Shown here: in pieces, positions 704-30,198 of the stretch
Layout of the letters: every line of letters starts with the position of its first letter
Numbering within the stretch: position 1 is the stretch's first letter
From: Brevibacillus panacihumi W25
GTDB taxonomy: Bacteria > Bacillota > Bacilli > Brevibacillales > Brevibacillaceae
Assembly (NCBI RefSeq): GCF_000503775.1
Contig: NZ_KI629782.1
Coordinates: 310,001 to 374,000, forward strand
DNA: 64,000 nucleotides
Direction of reading: 5' to 3'
Position numbers and translations under genes: made by a program
The notes under the pieces: model-generated
The model's input: the letters and a program-made list of their open reading frames with translations, nothing else
Databases searched by the model: none
What the model was told of the DNA's origin: nothing

Positions 704-1816
704 TTAATTTCCTTGGGCCATTTTTGTGTGAACTCGGACTTCATGACCCAATGTATTCGCAAGAAACACCGCATACTCCAACGGTCTGCGAATCGCCTTT
801 TGATACTGCTGACGAAGGCCCATCTCCCGAAAAATTTCACGCGCTGGCTTGGGGTTAACTTCGATCAGCCAGGCACGCCCATCTACATCAATGCCAATAT
901 CGAGACCGAACTCTACCATTCTGCCGAAATGGTTTTCCAGTGTTTGGACGGTTTCAAAAGCCAACCTTTCACAATCCGCCACAATCTGTTTCGTCTGTCC
1001 CTCCCCAAAACGGGGACGCAGCAATTGCTCGGCTGGGACTGCCTTTCCTCCCCCATGAAGGTTGGAGGTAGCGCTTTTTTCCTGGCCGATTCGAATGCCG
1101 TGGCCAGTGATGCTCCATTCGCCAGTACCGTCCTTCTGGATCAGCAGGCGCATATCGACCGCTCTTTTGGGGACCAGATCGAGACGCAGGCCTTGCTGCA
1201 CGATATATTTTTGGCCTTTGGTCCAGCGATCAACCCATTTTTGGACAGACGATACTCGGGCTAGCACCGCAGATACTTTTGCCCGATTCCGGTCGCGGCC
1301 CAGCAAGCGGTAGCCCCCTGCTGCCCGTTCGATGCGAAGAATATTGCGCCCGCCCGTTCCGTTAAGCGGTTTTACGTACAGAAGCGGATGTCTCCCAAGC
1401 ATTTGCGCCAGCTTTCCTCGATTGTAAAGCCATGTCTCGGGCAGCCATTGATGCATGCGCGGATCTTTGTACAGCACTTCGTGAACGCGCCATTTATTGG
1501 CAAGCCGGTTGTTGACATATAGAAACGTGCTCGTACGACGAAAAGAAACATAGTCTTTGAATGCTTGCGTCGGCGTGTAACGATAACGGTCAAAGACGGC
1601 ATCCGGGCGCCCAAACATTTGGCCTTGCCATTTGCCCTGTTCATTTAAAATATAGCCTCTTACCCGCTTTCCGGAAGCCAATACATCCTTGGGTGAAAAC
1701 AAAAAGACATGGCAGCCCAGTTCCCGGCCTGCCCGAAGCAATTTGCGAAAATAGGCGGGTTCCGCGAATCTTTTTCCCTCCCGCCAGGTGAGAACGCCGA
1801 TTGTGGGTCGTTTCAT
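704..1816 (-). CDS. YheC/YheD family ATP-grasp protein (spore-associated)
   Basis: The 370-residue protein matches the YheC/YheD family, which in Bacillus is tied to the endospore coat and has an ATP-grasp-like fold. N-terminal residues 1-30 carry the typical opening (IGVLTWREGKRFAEPAYF). The middle holds a lysine-rich nucleotide segment (YVKPLNGTGGRNI), and the C-terminal part has the ATP-grasp metal-site pattern (FGLDIGIDVDGRAWLIEVNP). Length fits YheC (about 360 residues). Substrate is unknown. The gene stands alone with its own terminator and a GGGAGGGTGG ribosome binding site. Confidence 0.85.
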   Translation of the reverse strand: MKRPTIGVLTWREGKRFAEPAYFRKLLRAGRELGCHVFLFSPKDVLASGKRVRGYILNEQGKWQGQMFGRPDAVFDRYRYTPTQAFKDYVSFRRTSTFLYVNNRLANKWRVHEVLYKDPRMHQWLPETWLYNRGKLAQMLGRHPLLYVKPLNGTGGRNILRIERAAGGYRLLGRDRNRAKVSAVLARVSSVQKWVDRWTKGQKYIVQQGLRLDLVPKRAVDMRLLIQKDGTGEWSITGHGIRIGQEKSATSNLHGGGKAVPAEQLLRPRFGEGQTKQIVADCERLAFETVQTLENHFGRMVEFGLDIGIDVDGRAWLIEVNPKPAREIFREMGLRQQYQKAIRRPLEYAVFLANTLGHEVRVHTKMAQGN

Positions 1817-17053: not shown

Positions 17054-17091
17054 AAAAAGCCAACTCTTCCACAATGGAGGAGTCAGCTTTT
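17054..17091 (-). terminator. Terminator at the end of the polysaccharide cluster
   Basis: A 15-base imperfect stem (17056-17070 with 17076-17090) is followed by T-rich sequence on the minus strand. It overlaps the last codons of the UDP-glucose dehydrogenase gene. Confidence 0.75.
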
Positions 17092-18369
17092 GCCCACGCC
17101 TAGATATTCGAAGCCCGCTTTCTTCAACTCATCATGAGGCCAGGCATTTCTGCCATCAAAGAGCAAGGGTTGCTCCATCTGTTCCTTGATGAGCTTCCAA
17201 TCCAACTTGACACACGCTTGCCACTCGGTCACCAAAACAGCCGCATGCGCACCGGCAAATGCTGCCTCAGGCGTCGTAACGTATTCTACATCTGGAAACA
17301 ACGCTTCTACAGCCTTCGCAGCGATGGGATCGTATGCCGTGACCACAGCCCCAGCAGCTTGCAGCTCTGCAAGAATTCGAAGCGCGGGCGCTTCGCGAAT
17401 ATCGTCAGTGTCCGGTTTGAATGCGAGTCCCAAGACCGCGATGCGTTTCCCTGCCAGATCCGGTATTTTACTTACCAACTGATTAAAAAACCAAACAGGC
17501 TGAGAGGCGTTTACCTCCCTTACCTTCTCGAGAAGAGAAAGTGTAACGCCGTGCTGATTCGCCAGTTTAAGCAAAGCGATGGTATCCTTTGGAAAACAGG
17601 AGCCGCCAAAACCGACCCCCGCACGCAGAAATTGCGAACCGATCCTGCTGTCCAGGCCCATGCCGTGGGAGACGACGGTTACATCTGTTCCGAGTACCGC
17701 ACTCAGGCGCGCAAGTTCGTTCATGAAGGAAATGCGCGCAGCAAGGAACGCATTCGAGGCGTATTTGATCAATTCCGCATTGGCTCGCGTCGTAATGACC
17801 CATGGAGCCGACAATCCGCTGTAGAGCGTTTGCATGACCGCAATCGCTTCCTCACTGTCTGCCCCCACAATGATGCGGGACGGGTTCAGGGCATCCTCCA
17901 GCGCACATCCTTCGCGTAAAAATTCCGGATTCGACACGACCTGCAGTTCCTTGCAGTGACGTAATGAAACGGCCGCCTGGTCCCCCGTCCCGACTGGTAC
18001 AGTGCTTTTAATCACCAAGGTCCGCTCTTTGGGAGAATGGTTATGCAACGTGGCAATATCCTGCAAGGCTGCGTGCAAATAACGCAGATCCGCTTCGCCA
18101 TCTTCTGTTTCGGGTGTTCCCACGCAAACAAAAACTACTTGTGCTTCCTTTGCTTCGACTAGATTGGTGGAAAAGCGAATTTTGCCTTGACCAAGCGTCT
18201 CCAGTAAAACCTGATCCAAGCCTGGTTCATAAATCGGGGATCGCCCGTTGGACAATTGTTCGATCTTCGCTGCATCGACATCGATTCCCAGTACCTCATG
18301 CCCCTTTACTGCAAGGGATACTGCTGTAGTCAATCCTACATACCCGGTACCGATTACGGCAACCTTCAT
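17083..18369 (-). CDS. ugd: UDP-glucose 6-dehydrogenase
   Basis: This enzyme oxidises UDP-glucose twice to UDP-glucuronate using NAD. The 428-residue protein has the N-terminal Rossmann motif IGTGYVGL, the substrate-binding Lys in LIKYASNAFLA, and the catalytic Cys in GFGGSCFPKDT near residue 258. It is the last gene of a polysaccharide cluster and supplies acidic sugar nucleotides to it. The closest functional analogues are TuaD and YwqF of B. subtilis; I cannot tell which it corresponds to. Confidence 0.95.
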   Translation of the reverse strand: MKVAVIGTGYVGLTTAVSLAVKGHEVLGIDVDAAKIEQLSNGRSPIYEPGLDQVLLETLGQGKIRFSTNLVEAKEAQVVFVCVGTPETEDGEADLRYLHAALQDIATLHNHSPKERTLVIKSTVPVGTGDQAAVSLRHCKELQVVSNPEFLREGCALEDALNPSRIIVGADSEEAIAVMQTLYSGLSAPWVITTRANAELIKYASNAFLAARISFMNELARLSAVLGTDVTVVSHGMGLDSRIGSQFLRAGVGFGGSCFPKDTIALLKLANQHGVTLSLLEKVREVNASQPVWFFNQLVSKIPDLAGKRIAVLGLAFKPDTDDIREAPALRILAELQAAGAVVTAYDPIAAKAVEALFPDVEYVTTPEAAFAGAHAAVLVTEWQACVKLDWKLIKEQMEQPLLFDGRNAWPHDELKKAGFEYLGVGKS

Positions 18370-18381
18370 TCCTTCACCCCG

Positions 18382-19455
18382 TCATTTTTTCATCACGCGC
18401 AGGTAGAGCTCTTCCAGCTTGGCTCGCTGCTTTTCTATATCGTGGTTTTTCTCCACTTTTTCCCTCGCTCGTGTGACAATCTGCGGCCATTCGCCCCTGG
18501 ACGCCATGACATACTCCATCATGCGCGCCAGCTTGGTCGGGGAACGCTCCGGCACCAGATAGCCGCTTTCCTTGTGTTCGATCAACTCGGGAATTCCTGC
18601 ATGGTAGGTAGATATCACGGGCCTTCCGGTAGCCATGGCTTCCATAAGCACGTTGGGTATCCCCTCCTGATTGCCGTTGCGTGCCGTTTTGCAAGCTATG
18701 ACAAAGAGATGGCAGCGTGCGAGCTCCTTTTGGACCCGTATATGAGGCAGAGCCCCTTTAAATACAACCTGTTTTTCGATTTGGTATTTCTTTACCAGCT
18801 TGCGAAGCTTTTTCCGTTCTTCTCCATCTCCCACGATGACGAGCTTGGCGCGCGGGAAACGCTCCCTCACTCGCTTGAAAGCCTTGATTAACGTATCCAT
18901 CCCTTTTTTTTCTGTCAATCGGCCTACGCTTAATAACCGATACTCGCCGTTAGTAACCTCTTGAGGCGGCTGCATCGGGAATTTGCGCAAATCGATGCCA
19001 GAACGGATCAGCGTTATTTTTTTCTCCGGGCACCCTAAACGGACAAGACGCTTCTTCATGTGCTTGCTTACCACGGTAAAAGCTTTTCCTTGCCGAAATA
19101 GACGTTTCAGCGAACGACGATATCCGGGGTTCTCCCGTACTCTCTTCGTCGCATCAAAGCCGTGAAACGACGTAATCAAAGGAAGCTTGGTACGTCGCGC
19201 ATAGGGGAGAAGTTCCAAGCCTGCCGGGCCGAATCGGGCGTGCAGACACTTGACTTTCTTTTTGCGCAGCCATGAAGAGAGGCCGGTCATACGCTTGCGA
19301 ACGTAGACCGGCGAGTAGGGAAACAGCTTTTTATTCCGTTGGCGTTCACGTGTCAGCACGATCGGTTTGACCTGGCGGTGACCAAGTAATTGCTCGTAAA
19401 TAAAGGTTTCGCTCTTAGGTAGAAACTTTCTGCGGTATACGAGGACACGTTGCAT
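18382..19455 (-). CDS. Glycosyltransferase, GT4 family
   Basis: The 357-residue GT-B fold enzyme has the GT4 signature in its C-terminal half: LLSVGRLTEKKGMDTLIKAF near residue 190 and EGIPNVLMEAMATGRPVI with the E-x7-E nucleotide-sugar site. The start at 19455 is fixed by CAGGAGG 7 bases upstream. It is very basic overall, suggesting peripheral contact with the membrane. Donor and acceptor sugars are unknown. It lies 24 bases downstream of the epimerase and 12 bases upstream of ugd, so the genes look co-transcribed. Confidence 0.9.
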   Translation of the reverse strand: MQRVLVYRRKFLPKSETFIYEQLLGHRQVKPIVLTRERQRNKKLFPYSPVYVRKRMTGLSSWLRKKKVKCLHARFGPAGLELLPYARRTKLPLITSFHGFDATKRVRENPGYRRSLKRLFRQGKAFTVVSKHMKKRLVRLGCPEKKITLIRSGIDLRKFPMQPPQEVTNGEYRLLSVGRLTEKKGMDTLIKAFKRVRERFPRAKLVIVGDGEERKKLRKLVKKYQIEKQVVFKGALPHIRVQKELARCHLFVIACKTARNGNQEGIPNVLMEAMATGRPVISTYHAGIPELIEHKESGYLVPERSPTKLARMMEYVMASRGEWPQIVTRAREKVEKNHDIEKQRAKLEELYLRVMKK

Positions 19456-19479
19456 GACCCGGCCTCCTGTCATTCGTTC

Positions 19480-20430
19480 TTATCCTTTGTTTTGGGCGCG
19501 CAGATTGGCCAACTGCATCCGGAGTCCGTCCTCCAGTCCAACACGAGGCCGGTAGCCCAGCTTGGTTTGAGCGAAGCTGATGTCCGCGCAGGTTCTTAGA
19601 GAATCTCCTGCGGAGCCTGTCGCAAATTGAATCTTGGGCGTGATTTGCAGCAATTGGCCCATGATGTTGAGTACATCAATCAGCTTGATTTCCCGGTCCC
19701 CGCCAATATTGAAAATATCACCGGGTGATGCATGTCGCGCAGCTAACAAGTTGGCTTCAACGGCATCCGACACAAAGGTGAAATCTCTGCTTTGCTGTCC
19801 ATCGCCGTAAATAGAGACTGACTCGCCTTTCAGCATCTGGCTGAAAAAACGGTGGAAAGCCATATCTGTACGCTGTCTTGGCCCATACACCGTAAAGTAC
19901 CGAAGCATAGTGACCGGCAGACCAAAGGCTTTTACGTACACCTGGCAGATCTGCTCCATCGACGCCTTGGTGACACCATAGGGAGAGATCGGCCTAAGTG
20001 GGGTTTGTTCATCGGTCCGGCTCCCTTCCATCGTACCGTAGACCGAGGATGAGGAAGAAGCTACGATAACAGGCGGCTTGGGGAGTTTCAGACAAGCCTC
20101 CAGCAGTGATTGCGTCACCAAAATATTGTGACTGACATAATCGGAGAAGGCTGCCCCCCAACTGCTGCGTACCCCGGGAAGGGCAGCCAAATGATAGACG
20201 ACATCAACCCCATCCAACCACTGCTCCCATCTCTGAGTCTGGAGCATGACGGAATGAAAGGTAAAGGCGGGATGCGTACCAATTTCCGCGAGGTTGCGCA
20301 GTTTGGCAGCTACGTCGTAGTTGTCAAGAAAACCGTCTATCCCGATCACGGAAACGCCGTCCTTGAGCAGACGCTGCGTCAAATGAGAACCGATAAACCC
20401 GGCACATCCTGTGACAAGTGCTTTCGTCAT
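19480..20430 (-). CDS. NAD-dependent nucleotide-sugar epimerase/dehydratase
   Basis: The 316-residue extended SDR has the cofactor motif GCAGFIGSHL at residue 8, SSSSVYG and the YGVTK catalytic Tyr-Lys pair near residue 150, and the MLRYFTVYGPRQR block typical of UDP-glucuronate/UDP-glucose 4-epimerases. With ugd in the same cluster, UDP-glucuronate 4-epimerase is a reasonable guess but not proven. Its start overlaps the end of the GT2 gene by four bases. Confidence 0.9.
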   Translation of the reverse strand: MTKALVTGCAGFIGSHLTQRLLKDGVSVIGIDGFLDNYDVAAKLRNLAEIGTHPAFTFHSVMLQTQRWEQWLDGVDVVYHLAALPGVRSSWGAAFSDYVSHNILVTQSLLEACLKLPKPPVIVASSSSSVYGTMEGSRTDEQTPLRPISPYGVTKASMEQICQVYVKAFGLPVTMLRYFTVYGPRQRTDMAFHRFFSQMLKGESVSIYGDGQQSRDFTFVSDAVEANLLAARHASPGDIFNIGGDREIKLIDVLNIMGQLLQITPKIQFATGSAGDSLRTCADISFAQTKLGYRPRVGLEDGLRMQLANLRAQNKG

Positions 20431-21230
20431 CGACGCCGCCTCCTCACTTTCTTCAACCGTTTAATGACCAGATATCCGTCTCGATAACCGTACACAGCCC
20501 GATAGTGGTTCCCCCAACGTTTCAGATAGTGGGAAAAGGTTTTTCTGCGCAGATAATTCCGTCTTCTTTTCATTTTCCGATCTGTGAGCTGTCCCTTGTG
20601 TTTGGTGCGGTTATACAACTTTTGATTGATATATCGGACGGGATATTTCTCCATCAGTCTCAGGATCATGCGGCGATCCTCCATAATACGTCCTTCGTAC
20701 TTGTCAGAGGTATCCCAGCCTCCTACCTCGTTCAGGGCAGCGACCCGATAGCAGCGAGGTGCCACCATCCAGCGGTTGTATTTCAAGAACTGGTATTTAT
20801 TGCGAAAGTGCTTGTGTTTCACGAGGAATGGGTTGTAATATTTCCCTCGTTTGACCCGCCAGATTTTTACGTTTCCATAAAAAAGAGCTGTTTTGGGTTT
20901 GCTTTTATAGATGTATTTCTTGATCGTGGACAAGGTTCGCTTGGGAAGCCAATCATCGGAATCTAGTTGCAGCAGATACGGGGTATCGGTCATGGAAAGA
21001 GCTTTATTCATCACCTTGGAAATCCCTGAGTTTTTTTCCATACGGTAATAAATCACATTGGGGTGGTACAGATATTTCTCTACTTTTTTTCTGGTTTTAT
21101 CCGTAGACGCATCGTCCATAATCAAAAGTTTCCAGTCTTTAGACTTCTGCTTCATGACACTGGAAATGGCTTTGCGAATGAATTTCGCCCGATTATACGT
21201 CGGTATGACAACAGTGAAGGTCGGACTCAT
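20427..21230 (-). CDS. Glycosyltransferase, GT2 family
   Basis: The 267-residue GT-A enzyme has an N-terminal VVIPTYNRAKFIRKAISSV block, DDASTDKT, and the metal-binding DSDDWLPKRTL near residue 92. The C-terminal tail is strongly basic (RRRR at the end), which may hold it at the membrane. It is coupled by four-base overlaps to both neighbours, the nucleotidyltransferase upstream and the epimerase downstream, so the three are expected to be translated in step. The sugar transferred is unknown. Confidence 0.9.
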   Translation of the reverse strand: MSPTFTVVIPTYNRAKFIRKAISSVMKQKSKDWKLLIMDDASTDKTRKKVEKYLYHPNVIYYRMEKNSGISKVMNKALSMTDTPYLLQLDSDDWLPKRTLSTIKKYIYKSKPKTALFYGNVKIWRVKRGKYYNPFLVKHKHFRNKYQFLKYNRWMVAPRCYRVAALNEVGGWDTSDKYEGRIMEDRRMILRLMEKYPVRYINQKLYNRTKHKGQLTDRKMKRRRNYLRRKTFSHYLKRWGNHYRAVYGYRDGYLVIKRLKKVRRRRR

Positions 21231-22273
21231 AGCTCCTCCCTCTTGACAGCAGGTAGTCTCATTGAAGATTTGTCGCTTAAAATGAAAACGCCAATGCTGT
21301 CAGCAGATTGACCTGTCAGATGAGAGGACCGACCAAACACGCTGTCGGTCACTTTCCAAGCCATGTCTTGAATGGTGCTGTGTTCCAGCAAGATACTGTT
21401 TTCGATGTGGGCGCAATTCTCCAGGCGGACGCCATCCTGTATGGAGACATAAGGCCCGATTCTGCAATTCTTGATGTGACACCCCTCGCCAATCAATACC
21501 GGACCAACAATGTTACAGTTTTCCAGGGTACTGGTCGCACCGACATGATACGTCTCCCCTAGCTCTCTTTCCAACATCCAGCGATTTGCCTCCAGCCAGC
21601 GATCGATCGTGCCCACGTCAGAGTATTTGCCATTCGTGGTGACATGGGCAATATGATAACCGCGATCGATCATGGATTGAATCGCATCCGTAATCTCATA
21701 TTCGCCGCGTGCTGATGGCTGCAGGGAAGCGATCGACTCAAAGATTGGTTTGGTGAACAGATACGCACCAATGACGGCCAGATTGCTTTTCGGCTGCTTC
21801 GGCTTTTCTTCCACGCCGATAAGTCGACCGTTCTTCACTTCAGCAATCCCATAATCCTGAGGTCTCTCTACTTCACTTACCATCACGGCGCCATCGGATT
21901 GCGCATGTGCAAACGTACTTGTCAGTCCATGCAGCGAATCCATTAATAAATTATCACCTAGCAGCAGGATAAACGGTTCGTCAAGCAGGAATGGCTGAGC
22001 CAGTTTGACGGCATGTGCGATGCCCAAGGGAATTTTTTGTTCAATAAAGGTGATGGTAGCCCCGAATTGACTACCATCACCAACCAACGGAGGAATTTGT
22101 ACCTGGGAAGGGTGAATGACGATCCCGATGTCATGAACACCCACTTCACGCAACTTGCGGATGCAAGAGTGTAAAACTGGATGGTTGGCCACTGGGAGGA
22201 GGGTTTTGGGTTGCGAATAGGAAAAAGGGTGCAGTCGTGTGCCACGCCCAGCACATAAGATTAATCCTTTCAC
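21227..22273 (-). CDS. Sugar-1-phosphate nucleotidyltransferase (long RmlA type)
   Basis: The 348-residue protein has an N-terminal nucleotidyltransferase domain (GLILCAGRGTRLHPFSYSQPK, then LLGDNLLMD) and a C-terminal left-handed beta-helix with hexapeptide-like repeats (residues about 245-310). This is the architecture of long glucose-1-phosphate thymidylyltransferases. The true start is GTG at 22273 with GGGGAG eight bases upstream; the open frame runs 26 codons further but without family sequence. It feeds an activated sugar to the cluster. Confidence 0.9.
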   Translation of the reverse strand: MKGLILCAGRGTRLHPFSYSQPKTLLPVANHPVLHSCIRKLREVGVHDIGIVIHPSQVQIPPLVGDGSQFGATITFIEQKIPLGIAHAVKLAQPFLLDEPFILLLGDNLLMDSLHGLTSTFAHAQSDGAVMVSEVERPQDYGIAEVKNGRLIGVEEKPKQPKSNLAVIGAYLFTKPIFESIASLQPSARGEYEITDAIQSMIDRGYHIAHVTTNGKYSDVGTIDRWLEANRWMLERELGETYHVGATSTLENCNIVGPVLIGEGCHIKNCRIGPYVSIQDGVRLENCAHIENSILLEHSTIQDMAWKVTDSVFGRSSHLTGQSADSIGVFILSDKSSMRLPAVKREEL

Positions 22274-22317
22274 AAATATCACTCCCCAGATGTGCTCTGT
22301 GATACTTTTAACGTATG

Positions 22318-22356
22318 CACAGTTACACATCTGGACAGGGCAAATGTCCAACTGTG
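22318..22356. repeat. Nested inverted repeat between two cluster genes
   Basis: CACAGTT (22318-22324) pairs with AACTGTG (22350-22356), and inside it GGACA (22333-22337) pairs with TGTCC (22345-22349). No T-run follows on either strand, so it does not look like a terminator. Confidence 0.5.
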
Positions 22357-22375
22357 TGAAAGAAAAGGCTCTGAC

Positions 22376-23563
22376 CTATCCTGCACGCAGGAGTTCGTTT
22401 GGTTGTGTACGGCCGGCATTGCGTTTTTGTACAGATTGCTCAAATACGCGGAGATAGCCTTGAGCCGTCGCATACCAGGAAAACTGCTTGGCTCTGCTCA
22501 ATGCGTGTTTTCCCATCTCGTTCTTGATCTGCGGATGCTTCCAAAGCCCCTCCCAAATGGAGGGAAGCTCTTTTTTCCACGCCTTGGGCGGAATCAGAAA
22601 GCCGCTGCCCTGATGGGTCACAACTTCCCCGATTCCCCCGCGGGGGGTCGTAATGACTGGCTTTCCAGATGCCATCGCTTCGAGATTGACGCGGCAAAAG
22701 GCTTCCTGCCATACGGAAGGTGTTGCTACTACATCTCCAATCTGGTAATAAAGCGGCATTTGCGCGCTCGGGACAAATTTGACGAACTTTACCTTGTCCC
22801 CAAGTGGTTTCGCCAGCTTCTTCAACTCCCGAACATACGGATTCAGGCGATTGCTGCCATATCCTGTCCCGCCTACTATGACTAATCGGGCCAAGGGGTC
22901 TTGTTCGCTTACCTTCCGAAATGCCCGCAGCAATACGTGAACGCCTTTTGCCCGGATCAAACGCCCGGCGTAGAATAGCACCCGATGCTCAGGCAGCAAA
23001 TCAAGTTGTTTGCGCAGCTTCTTCACGGTGTAGTGAAGTTTGGCCTGCTGATAAGGCGAGACATCTACCCCGAGATGGACGGCCTGAATCTTCGCAGCCG
23101 GGATCTTGCACTTGGTCATGAAATAGCGGCGCAAATACTCGCTGTTGGTAATAAAACCGTCTGCAATCCGTACCACTCGCCGCATTTTTTGGGGGCTGAT
23201 CATCGCAGGAGACGCGTAGACATGCGAGTGCATGTTGACGAACACAGGGATTTTGGGAAACCGGCGCTTCAAAGCCAATACATACTGCGGCCGATTTTCC
23301 ACCATAATGACGTCTGGCTTGTGCCTGCGCAAATGATTCATGATCTTTTGCAAGTACGGCTTTGGTCCGTTGTAGCGATAGCGGACGAAGCGCCGATTCT
23401 CCTCTACGCTTGATTTCGGATAGGTTGCGCATTTTCGCGTATAAATGGTCACTTGATGCTCAGGATCCATCATTTTCGTCACTTCATCAATATCATGCTC
23501 GACGGAGCTTCCCTTGACTGGTGGGACCGAGAACGGGCCGGGACTAATGATCGCGATGTGCAT
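22376..23563 (-). CDS. Glycosyltransferase, GT4 family
   Basis: The 395-residue GT-B enzyme has the N-terminal block IAIISPGPFSVPPVKGSSVE, the linker-domain motif VLFYAGRLIRAKGVHVLLRAF near residue 195 and the C-terminal E-x7-E segment (EAFCRVNLEAMASGKPVI). It resembles glycosyltransferases found in spore-coat or teichoic-type polysaccharide clusters. Its first codons overlap the end of the coiled-coil gene by 20 bases. Substrate not determined. Confidence 0.9.
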   Translation of the reverse strand: MHIAIISPGPFSVPPVKGSSVEHDIDEVTKMMDPEHQVTIYTRKCATYPKSSVEENRRFVRYRYNGPKPYLQKIMNHLRRHKPDVIMVENRPQYVLALKRRFPKIPVFVNMHSHVYASPAMISPQKMRRVVRIADGFITNSEYLRRYFMTKCKIPAAKIQAVHLGVDVSPYQQAKLHYTVKKLRKQLDLLPEHRVLFYAGRLIRAKGVHVLLRAFRKVSEQDPLARLVIVGGTGYGSNRLNPYVRELKKLAKPLGDKVKFVKFVPSAQMPLYYQIGDVVATPSVWQEAFCRVNLEAMASGKPVITTPRGGIGEVVTHQGSGFLIPPKAWKKELPSIWEGLWKHPQIKNEMGKHALSRAKQFSWYATAQGYLRVFEQSVQKRNAGRTQPNELLRAG

Positions 23564-26391: not shown

Positions 26392-28527
26392 TTATGATTC
26401 TTCTCTTACATCCGGGTCGTTGTCCTCTGATGAAACTTCCTGGTCCAGATCCAACAGCAAGTCATCTTCTTCATCTATCAATTCGTCTGCGGGCTCTTCT
26501 TCCTCCTCCTGCCAAGTCGAATAGGCTTCAGGGTCGTATTCTTCAACTGGCAATCCCTTTTCTCCCAGCGCAATCCAGTGCACCAATCCATTGATTTCCT
26601 GTCCGATCCGCGGACGGAATACCGTAATCACCGAATTGGTTTTGGTACTGTATTTCAGCGAAGCGTGGCACCCCGGCTGATTCGTCATCGCAACCACGCA
26701 ATAATGCTGGTTTGCATAGGGCTGCGGTAAACGGATGGTTACATCCACCATCTTTTTATTGGCTGTGAAACGGAAAGGTACAAAGCCAAACTGCTGCAGG
26801 GTTTCCCCTTGTACAGCATGTGTTTCTACCGGACGGAACGAGAGCTTTTCAGGAGTAACGACGCCGTCAGCCAATTTATCTGTCGTTATGCTTTCGTCTT
26901 GGAGTTGATGATGCCCGATGGCTGATGCGGCGATATGCTTTTGCTGGATCACCTGTGGAGTAAGATGTTGAGCCAAAATCGCCTGGTCGGCTATCTTTTC
27001 GCTGGTAATCGAAGCCCTTGCCACATGACGGCTTTTGACGGCATCCGTCGCCAGCTTGGATGTAGTAACGGCATGTTCTGCCAATTTGGCGGTAGTGACG
27101 CTTTGTTCCGTAATTTTATCGGTAGAGACGGATTCCGAGGCGAGCTTCGAGGTCGTGATAGCCCGATCAGCCAAATGATGTGTTTGTACGACTGCTTCAT
27201 TCAGATGCGAAGAGTTGATCAGGCGATTGGTCAAGTGTTGTTCTTCAATGGATCTCGCTGCGATCTTGTCACTGTCGACCACACCATCTGCCAGGTGGAT
27301 TCGCTGGATGCTTTCCTTTTTCAGCTGTTCACTCCCGACACTACGGGGAGCCAGTTTGTCAACCGTGACGGCCTTGTCAGCGAGCTTGCTGGTCGTGACC
27401 TGCGACTCTCCAATTTTACCAGTGGTGATCGCTTGATCCTGCAGGTGAACCGTCTGTACACTGGATGACTGAAGATGATTGCTGGTAATCGATTCTCTGG
27501 CTATTTTTTCTGTCGTGACACTGGCATGATCCAAATGCTCGGTCAGGATGGCGTAAGGACTGATTTTCTCGCTTGTAATTGCGTTATTTACGAGGTTCTG
27601 AGGATATACGGCGTCAAACGCCAGATGTTGGTGAAGCACACACCCCGCAGTCAGATTGACACTGTCCACCGCCATTTCTGCAAGATGATGGTGCTGGATG
27701 CTGCCTTCTCTAAGGTGGCGTGATTCTATGGCCTCTTCATCGATTTTCGAAGCAGTGACTACTCCGTCGCGAAGCTTGCTGCTGGTTACGGCACCGTCTT
27801 CCAGCTTGGCGGAATTGATGATCTCATTTGCCAAATTCCCTTTTTGAATCCCGCCCATTTTAATTTTGTCTGCAGTAATCGCCTGGTCCTGAATACATTC
27901 TCGTGTGATCGCCTGCTCCGCGATGTGTCTGGTCTGGATAGAACCATCTCTAAACTTGATGGAGTCAATCGTATTGTCTGCAAGCTTCTCCGAGGTGATG
28001 CTGTTGTTCATCAGCTTTTCTCCGGAGATCGCCCTGTTTTGAATCATCTCATTGCTGATGATTCCTGCACTTAGATGCTCGCGTGCGATCGCATGCGGTG
28101 CAATTTTGCTGGAGGTTACACTTTGGTCTGCCAATTTCGTGGCATCAACGGCATAATCTTTCAAAAGAAGAGTGTCCACAGTTCCGGGTTTAATTTTGGC
28201 TGCATCGACGGCGCGATTGGCAATTTTTTCCGTCGTTACCGCCTGATCGGTCAAATCATCCGTATAGACGAAGGATTGCGGCCGGTCTCCCGTGCGTTCT
28301 TTTATCAATTTGGAAAAGGTTGTCTGATTAGAAGATACTCCATTCTTTGACTTCTTTTGAAATGGGGGCTTCAGGAACGGCTCTGTATGGGTACCTAACA
28401 GTTCTGCCTCGAGTTCGTACACTTCTGCAAGATCCCCACCCGTCTTGATCAGGGGTATGTCATGAACGTTGTTTCGATAGGTTTTGCCTAGATTTTTATT
28501 TAGCTTTCGGCGATTTACATTTGCCAT
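26392..28527 (-). CDS. Decapeptide-repeat protein with WIAG-tail-like C-terminus
   Basis: The 711-residue product has a basic N-terminal part (residues 1-95), then 47 consecutive ten-residue repeats (96-565) without a single indel, consensus roughly (A/S)(I/V)-x-(S/T)-x-(K/H)(I/L)-x-x-x. Next comes a C-terminal domain (566-660) ending in NGLVHWIALGEKG, and a very acidic tail. The C-terminus resembles the WIAG-tail domain found with such repeats in Gram-positive proteins. The repeat unit looks like those of phage tail-fibre shafts. ATG 28527 is set by GGGAGGAG. There is no signal peptide or membrane helix. It probably forms a long fibrous or solenoid rod; its role and location are unknown. Confidence 0.88.
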   Translation of the reverse strand: MANVNRRKLNKNLGKTYRNNVHDIPLIKTGGDLAEVYELEAELLGTHTEPFLKPPFQKKSKNGVSSNQTTFSKLIKERTGDRPQSFVYTDDLTDQAVTTEKIANRAVDAAKIKPGTVDTLLLKDYAVDATKLADQSVTSSKIAPHAIAREHLSAGIISNEMIQNRAISGEKLMNNSITSEKLADNTIDSIKFRDGSIQTRHIAEQAITRECIQDQAITADKIKMGGIQKGNLANEIINSAKLEDGAVTSSKLRDGVVTASKIDEEAIESRHLREGSIQHHHLAEMAVDSVNLTAGCVLHQHLAFDAVYPQNLVNNAITSEKISPYAILTEHLDHASVTTEKIARESITSNHLQSSSVQTVHLQDQAITTGKIGESQVTTSKLADKAVTVDKLAPRSVGSEQLKKESIQRIHLADGVVDSDKIAARSIEEQHLTNRLINSSHLNEAVVQTHHLADRAITTSKLASESVSTDKITEQSVTTAKLAEHAVTTSKLATDAVKSRHVARASITSEKIADQAILAQHLTPQVIQQKHIAASAIGHHQLQDESITTDKLADGVVTPEKLSFRPVETHAVQGETLQQFGFVPFRFTANKKMVDVTIRLPQPYANQHYCVVAMTNQPGCHASLKYSTKTNSVITVFRPRIGQEINGLVHWIALGEKGLPVEEYDPEAYSTWQEEEEEPADELIDEEDDLLLDLDQEVSSEDNDPDVREES
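26833..28242 (-). repeat. 47 in-frame 30-base coding repeats
   Basis: This stretch encodes residues 96-565 of the repeat protein. Protein-level periodicity is exactly ten residues; DNA copies are diverged. Motif SEK(I/L) or xx(H)(L) recurs at position 4-7 of each unit. Confidence 0.9.
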
Positions 28528-28619
28528 GCGGCTCTCCTCCCGTCCAGTGACAACATAGCTATTGTGTAGCGTATTCACCTATCTGGGTGGTGGGTACTTG
28601 TGTACGAAAATTTTCATGC

Positions 28620-28660
28620 AAAAAAACTGCTTTTCCAGCATCCACACTGGAAAGCAGTTT
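28620..28660 (-). terminator. Terminator of the FtsH-like gene
   Basis: AAACTGCT-TTCCAG (28624-28637) pairs with CTGGAA-AGCAGTTT (28647-28660), followed by seven T residues on the minus strand. Confidence 0.9.
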
Positions 28661-28677: not shown

Positions 28678-30198
28678 TCAGACCGCGACATGCTTGTTTT
28701 CAGGCGTATACCGAGTGAGCAAGGCGCGGAATTCGTCACCCTGCAACACTTCTGCGTCCATCAAGGTCTGCAAGCTGTTGATGAAGACGGGATCATACTG
28801 ACCCAATAGCTGGCGGGTTTTGACCAGCAGGTTTTCCAAAAGATGCTCGACTTCTTCATGTACCCGATTTTTATCGACGTATTGGAGATGTACAATACCC
28901 AGACGGGACATCCCGCTCTGTACGATCTCCTGGGCCATGTTCAGGGCTTGTTCAAAGTCATTCCTGGAGCCTGTGCTGCGGCCGCCATAGTAGATTTCCT
29001 CGGCTACGGCGCCACCCAAGCTTACCATGATCTGTTTTTCCATCGCATCCTTGGTGTACAGATATCGATCTTCCATCGGATTTTGCCGTACGTACCCCAA
29101 TGCCTTTCCGCGCGGACTCAGTGTGACTTGGGAGACCGAACCTGGGCGTACGATTTCACTGACGATAGCATGACCCAGCTCATGCAGGGCGACCCTTTTC
29201 TTCTCTTCAAGCGATGCTTCCCGGTCCACTTTTTCCCCCATCATCACCTTGTCCACCGCATAGCCAAAGTGGCGGGCCTCGATCATCTCATTGCCTTCAC
29301 GCATGGCGTAGATGGCAGCTTCGTTGGCGACGCTCTCCAATTGAGCGCCAGAAAAGCCAAAGGTTTCTTGGGCAATTTTCTCCAGCACCACGTCCGAACC
29401 AAGCGGCTTGTTCGCCGTATGAATCGTCAAAATCTGCTCACGCGCAGGCTTGTCCGGCAAGTCCACACTGATGTGCCGGTCGAAACGGCCAGGTCTGAGC
29501 AAGGCTGCATCCAGCATGTCCTTCCGGTTCGTCGCAGCCATAACGAGTACACGCGGCTTGTCGCTGGTCGCTACTCCGTCCATCTCTGTCAACAGCTGGT
29601 TGAGAGTCTGATCGTATTCGCGCTGCTGCTGACCATCGCGTTTTCCCCCGATGACGTCAATTTCATCGATGAAAATAATGGCGCTATCCTGGCCGTTCTT
29701 CTCCGCCATCGCTTTGACGTCACGAAACAACTCACGCACACGCTGAGCACCGACACCGACGTACATCTCCACGAATTGGGAACCTGAAGCAGCAACAAAA
29801 GCGGAATTCGTGTAATTGGCCGCCGCTTTTGCCATCAGCGTTTTCCCGGTTCCCGGTGGACCGGTCAAAAGTACACCCTTAATCGGACGAATGCCATACT
29901 GCTCAATCTTGTCCTTGTAGACCAGAAAGTCGAGCGCTTCCTTCAATTCTTTTTTAGCCCGCTCCTGTCCGCCAATGTCGGCGAACTGCACGTTTGACCG
30001 GGGAATCACATGCTTTTTCTGCTTGCCTTTGCCGCCAAGAGCCACGTTGCCGCCCTTACCGCCTTGATGGCGCTGCAGCATAAAGTAGATAACCCCCAAC
30101 ACGATGGCCAAGAGCAAGAACGGGGTGATATTGATACCGAGGAACAGCAGGAAGATCAGGCCCCCTGCAATGACACCGATCACCCATTCCTTAAGCAT
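28678..30198 (-). CDS. Short FtsH-like membrane AAA protease
   Basis: The 506-residue protein has two closely spaced helices (about residues 5-22 and 25-42) with only about three residues between them, then an AAA module: Walker A GPPGTGKT (113-120), Walker B IIFIDEID (174-181), and arginine fingers in LLRPGRFDR. The M41 protease domain has HELGH (339-343) and the third zinc ligand Asp 414. Ordinary FtsH has a long domain between its two helices and about 640 residues; both the loop and the C-terminal tail are reduced here. Catalytic residues are intact, so it should be an active ATP-dependent protease. It overlaps the upstream membrane-protein gene by eight bases. Confidence 0.9.
   Translation of the reverse strand: MLKEWVIGVIAGGLIFLLFLGINITPFLLLAIVLGVIYFMLQRHQGGKGGNVALGGKGKQKKHVIPRSNVQFADIGGQERAKKELKEALDFLVYKDKIEQYGIRPIKGVLLTGPPGTGKTLMAKAAANYTNSAFVAASGSQFVEMYVGVGAQRVRELFRDVKAMAEKNGQDSAIIFIDEIDVIGGKRDGQQQREYDQTLNQLLTEMDGVATSDKPRVLVMAATNRKDMLDAALLRPGRFDRHISVDLPDKPAREQILTIHTANKPLGSDVVLEKIAQETFGFSGAQLESVANEAAIYAMREGNEMIEARHFGYAVDKVMMGEKVDREASLEEKKRVALHELGHAIVSEIVRPGSVSQVTLSPRGKALGYVRQNPMEDRYLYTKDAMEKQIMVSLGGAVAEEIYYGGRSTGSRNDFEQALNMAQEIVQSGMSRLGIVHLQYVDKNRVHEEVEHLLENLLVKTRQLLGQYDPVFINSLQTLMDAEVLQGDEFRALLTRYTPENKHVAV

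Follow-up and report, generated by a model that had tools for sequence, protein, structure and literature searches.

A conserved decapeptide-repeat protein with a WIAG-tail head in Brevibacillus panacihumi is a candidate spore-surface fibre

What does a bacterial gene with 47 consecutive ten-residue units make, and where does its product act? The window analysed here, 64,000 nucleotides of Brevibacillus panacihumi W25 (contig NZ_KI629782.1, positions 310,001 to 374,000), encodes such a protein, which ends in a WIAG-tail domain. The product is probably a trimeric spore-surface fibre made by the mother cell, an analogue of BclA but no homologue. The outermost spore layer governs spore sticking, and its fibres are poorly known outside a few groups. 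The gene and its parts are as follows.

26392..28527, minus strand: WIAG-tail gene with decapeptide repeats, candidate fibre gene, 711 amino acids, ATG start
28273..28527, minus strand: residues 1–85, basic N-terminal region with no signal-peptide-like or membrane segment, putative anchor
28243..28272, minus strand: residues 86–95 (FVYTDDLTDQ), first in-phase unit and conserved shaft-start motif, from motif search and alignment
26833..28242, minus strand: residues 96–565, shaft of 47 decapeptide units, from translation and unit analysis
26560..26799, minus strand: residues 577–656, head, WIAG-tail domain with a predicted discoidin/H-type-lectin-like jelly roll, from profile match and structure prediction
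26395..26538, minus strand: residues 664–711, acidic tail, computed charge about −22

The gene has a single location in its own genome. The mechanical open reading frame starts at GTG 28578. ATG 28527 is the better start because GTG 28578 overlaps a conserved promoter-like element. A good ribosome-binding site, GGGAGGAG, ends 6 bases before this ATG, which yields the 711-residue protein.

Translated from ATG 28527, residues 96–565 form 47 ten-residue units with zero insertions or deletions. V, I, L, M or F stands at unit positions 2 and 7 in 47/47 units and at any other position in 1–8/47. Position 1 is A, S, T, G or C in 38/47 units, and position 4 is T, S, A or G in at least 34/47, with the commonest residues counted. 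K occupies position 6 in 24 units and H in 15, and the approximate consensus is [AS]-[VI]-T-[TS]-x-[KH]-[LI]-A-D-x. The period-10 signal amounts to 1.48 bits per column; shuffles give 0.26 (standard deviation 0.03, maximum 0.37, n = 2000), and the excess is 45 standard deviations. A sequence-only reading of this DNA had described the exact phasing, the hydrophobic and small residues, and a WIAG-like end reading WIALG before an acidic tail; each of these features is borne out, with WIALG at residues 651–655. On the hydrophobic criterion alone the phase extends one unit to each side (residues 86–95 and 566–575), giving 49 units; the count of 47 is fair, perhaps slightly low. At the DNA level, the mean identity between units is 41% and Tandem Repeats Finder finds one 19-base match, so the repeat is no recent tandem array. 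An eight-unit superperiod based on H at position 6 was rejected. Its lag-8 autocorrelation is weak (0.36 in the window protein, mean 0.19 in 39 proteins), and the wrong phase had been read in some proteins (e.g., L043, L055, and L068).

PHROG tail-fibre families match the shaft repeats with a best E value of 3.2e-86. The ten-residue unit is of like kind to that of phage tail-fibre shafts (phrog_892 and others), and such repeats are encoded in 70 of 50,697 phage records. The phage repeats differ in being joined to other ends, and all 70 records fall below 60% identity. A whole-protein homologue search, with 7993 candidates scored and 802 matches, brought up repeat-bearing proteins of other kinds. 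The best 120 of the 802 were taken further, and in 109 of these eight or more consecutive units stay in phase. Modules were re-scanned in seven relatives. A YadA anchor was found in two, and an S74 chaperone, Mtd_N, Phage_fiber_2, and CotH in one each; the seventh, P0006, gave no family at 1e-4 despite a precomputed T7-fibre domain. Modules of the YadA, S74, and Mtd types form trimers. A CotH kinase domain with an N-terminal run of 21–22 units is present in P0077, P0090, P0091, P0092, and P0106 (precomputed domains; P0077 was re-scanned).

Structure prediction of the last units before the head gave short helical turns every ten residues, with block predicted local distance difference test (pLDDT) values of 64–81. 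The 490-residue shaft was also modelled as a single chain from 13 sequences, a monomer check that the sequence-only reading had named, and the mean pLDDT was 33. Such a model neither demonstrates a solenoid nor establishes disorder. That reading had offered two folds. The PHROG matches, the 70 phage records, the relatives with YadA, S74, and Mtd_N modules, and the predicted head fold indirectly favour a trimeric fibre resembling the shafts of phage tails. A single-chain beta-solenoid found no support in the model and is not favoured. Against solved sequences the repeat gave weak matches alone, to 9eg4_H orf16 (E = 0.0029) and DotG/IcmE repeats (E = 0.031). Pentapeptide-repeat families gave no match above cut-off (HetL, 13.5 bits versus 260; no such Pfam match).

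The head at residues 577–656 matches NCBIfam WIAG-tail NF012201 at 105.4 bits versus a cut-off of 33, over model positions 1–80 of 80. The window protein is a member of this family, whose model name carries no function. The predicted head fold is a discoidin/H-type-lectin-like jelly roll, equal to that of trimeric fibre heads and tips. R-pyocin tail fibres, AP22 gp53, and the C-terminal domains of the LKA1, phi297, and Sf6 tailspikes share 9–18% identity with the head, whereas the window gene is not a phage gene. Gp53-like_C (PF21882) stays below cut-off on the window domain (20.1 versus 24.9 bits) and matches 13/33 family members at E values up to 1 (best, 4.7e-6). H_lectin (PF09458) gives no match for the window member and matches 1/33 family members (E = 0.31). 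The head profile found no relevant match among solved sequences.

Tail-fibre repeats and a head with a predicted fibre-tip fold would also be expected if the protein were the domesticated tail fibre of a prophage, tailocin, or secretion device and still served a particle as its receptor-binding fibre. This explanation is quite improbable given the distribution and setting of the gene. It is chromosomal, with one WIAG match per genome in 26/26 Brevibacillus genomes. The head was unmatched in the 50,697 phage records, and viral contigs gave 13 candidate stretches, 0 of which were confirmed. The comparison of gene neighbourhoods, within five genes of WIAG, took in 30 loci of the window's family and 50 others, 80 in all after the script had set aside one of 81. 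In the family, an FtsH-like protease gene is present at 25/30 loci and an AsnS-like gene at 26/30, and DnaD-like genes recur. The scanned neighbours in the window are DnaD, the FtsH-like protease, a peptidase, and sugar genes; no phage structural module was recognised among them. The WIAG gene also has its own promoter-like element, described below.

Within class Bacilli, 109/398 genomes carry WIAG, 108 of them above cut-off, with a single match in all carriers but one. A phylum-wide sample of 398 genomes gave 6 carriers, all Bacilli. SpoIVA is present in 109/109 WIAG carriers versus 159/289 non-carriers (Fisher p = 2e-23, from genomes that include relatives and are not independent), and WIAG is found in 0 of the 130 SpoIVA-negative genomes. 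Within the sample, WIAG is restricted to sporulators. NF012201 has 0 matches in 14 control genomes, a set that yields B. subtilis matches in other searches, which agrees with the earlier claim that B. subtilis lacks this protein. That claim had also placed the gene where aspB would stand. The placement is roughly right, with an AspB-like gene within five genes at 7/30 family loci; AspB, AsnS, and YpmB were identified by eye without a profile.

A hydropathy scan found no signal-peptide-like or membrane segment in 71/71 WIAG proteins of at least 600 residues, with start codons picked by script. The maxima were 1.08 for a 15-residue mean within the first 60 residues and 1.57 for a 19-residue mean anywhere. 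In the same 71 proteins, the first 25 residues have a median net charge of +5, and the shaft-start motif is present in 36. The tail is net acidic in 52/58 WIAG proteins with tails of at least 20 residues. Long acidic DDEDT-type repeats form the tails of six Brevibacillus proteins (L042, L044, L045, L050, L051, and L053), with 72–98 acidic residues in 117–155. A vegetative cell-surface adhesin would share the architecture of fibre and lectin head seen in trimeric adhesins, and two re-scanned relatives have a YadA anchor. The lack of an export segment in all 71 proteins and the presence of SpoIVA in every carrier nevertheless make an adhesin very unlikely.

The upstream region contains two elements.

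28567..28597, minus strand: promoter-like element GTACC-N16-GAATACGCTA, conserved upstream of WIAG genes
28632..28653, minus strand: terminator-like hairpin between the upstream FtsH-like gene and the promoter-like element, by pattern match only (5 such patterns in the region versus a mean of 3.3 in shuffles)

GTRCC followed by TGAATA is present in 20/21 genus sequences, and in the 21st (L056) after start correction. TG[AC]ATA lies 15–90 nucleotides before the chosen start in 58/78 WIAG genes versus 53/1037 control genes from the same loci, a descriptive contrast, as the motif was derived from these same genes. The −10 of the WIAG element has one departure from the sigma-K consensus CATANNNTA. 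A GerE-like box is found in 30/78 WIAG upstream regions versus 118/1037 control regions. With one mismatch, the box clusters 39–40 nucleotides before the core in 17/58 and lies 37–42 nucleotides before it in 21/58, 0 of which are in the window's genus. The N16 spacer falls within the 14–16-nucleotide gap published for sigma-K, and position four of the −35 is C, again in agreement with sigma-K as published (PMC517825). A late mother-cell sigma-K-like promoter upstream of the WIAG gene is plausible on these sequence features. The strict sigma-K pattern AC-N15-18-CATANNNTA, however, is not enriched upstream of WIAG genes. Sigma-E patterns are not enriched there either. TGAATANNNTACA occurs at 13 places in the window's own genome (2 with the pattern reversed), and no coat gene except the WIAG gene was recognisable by eye at these places.

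A shaft of fibre type, a lectin-fold head, the lack of an export signal, and the restriction to sporulators in the sample together fit a spore fibre that the mother cell puts in place. Localisation in spores, which the sequence-only reading had named as a check, is the direction in which the indirect evidence points. Transcription would take place late in the mother cell, probably from the sigma-K-like promoter. The protein would reach the spore from the mother-cell cytoplasm and assemble there, where the basic N-terminus may anchor it to coat or exosporium. Three chains would be wound together in the shaft, and the count of ten-residue units would determine how long it is. At the shaft end, a trimeric discoidin/H-type-lectin-like head would nucleate folding and could double as a tip that binds sugars. 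Products of adjacent sugar-transfer genes may glycosylate the shaft, which is rich in Ser and Thr.

The protein could instead be an unexposed structural component, coat or parasporal, inside the cell, or a scaffold made of a single-chain solenoid; either would likewise lack an export signal and be restricted to sporulators. Neither would require the putative trimerisation or the putative anchor role of the N-terminus. The lectin-type head and tail-fibre shaft instead suggest a projecting fibre, and the single-chain shaft model gave no confident solenoid; an internal protein is a minority possibility that we regard as rather unlikely.

A spore-surface fibre of this kind would fill the role of BclA in the B. 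cereus group. BclA and other collagen-like exosporium fibres share its logic of an N-terminal anchor, a repeat shaft of variable length, a trimeric jelly-roll head, and nearby sugar genes. The window protein differs in having decapeptides instead of Gly-X-Y repeats and another head, and it has no Pfam collagen match. A collagen scan of its own genome gave one marginal 45-residue match. The B. laterosporus proteins CpbA, CpbB, CHRD, and ExsC, with bands of about 28 and 16 kDa (PMC5335551), are too small to be the WIAG protein.

Our judgement is evenly balanced on the broader proposal that WIAG-tail proteins form a Bacilli-wide class of spore-surface fibres, not recognised before, which is built from phage tail-fibre parts. 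The mother cell would make the members and neighbouring genes would serve to glycosylate them; a decapeptide shaft of typically some 47–250 in-phase units would set the length, and a trimeric lectin-fold tip would cap it. The family name is already in the database. Among the papers listed by searches of the open-licence PMC literature, none reported a function or spore role for the family or its decapeptide repeat, nor the spore-fibre role proposed here. If the proposal is true, Brevibacillus, Paenibacillus, and other sporulating Bacilli gain a spore fibre whose length can be read off the gene, and phage-type fibre parts are in cellular use in a conserved, mostly single-copy gene. It would also offer a ready display scaffold and a route to function for a domain merely named in NCBIfam.

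The window shaft was aligned with 12 shafts from named Brevibacillus loci using MAFFT, and all gap runs are multiples of ten. Shaft lengths in multiples of ten follow from the cutting of the excerpts, whereas the internal placement of gaps by MAFFT does not. Units were compared one by one for 6 of the 12 aligned shafts. Collinear best matches number 48/48 in B. panacihumi, 35/48 in B. invocatus, 28–31/48 in three others, and 10/48 in the shorter of two B. massiliensis genes; units therefore retain their identity over short evolutionary distances. The longest in-phase run is 2–212 units (median 68) across 78 WIAG proteins, taken from the 80 fetched loci and the window after removal of four truncated at contig starts. 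Low values include fragments and three proteins of the window's family (L063, L066, and L067) of about 350–370 residues, which have the head, no recognisable run, and are perhaps a natural shaftless version. A Paenibacillus locus (L137) has a 251-unit run with one unit off the criterion. Tandem WIAG genes with 93 and 48 units are present in one Brevibacillus massiliensis genome (L071 and L132).

The WIAG gene of the window is flanked by a protease gene and, further downstream, by sugar genes.

28678–30198, minus strand: FtsH-like AAA and M41 protease, 506 amino acids, directly upstream of the WIAG gene and recurrent in the family as given above
17083..23563, minus strand: downstream six-gene sugar cluster (GT4, nucleotidyltransferase, GT2, epimerase, GT4, and UDP-glucose dehydrogenase)

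The nucleotidyltransferase recurs at 26/80 loci (19 in the window's family) and GT4 at 23/80 (20 in the family). The sugar cluster and the fibre may be functionally linked. Outside the family, a YheC/D gene is near WIAG at 29/50 loci (7 families) and a SpoVR gene at 20/50 (4 families). Pfam confirmed six YheC/D proteins and one SpoVR. Six genomes checked contain 5–15 YheC/D copies each, so chance proximity to WIAG is estimated at a few per cent at most. The window's own genome has ten matches to the YheC/D family, and a YheC/D ATP-grasp gene lies at window positions 704–1816 on the minus strand (own genome C1:310761-311519), about 25 kb from the WIAG gene.
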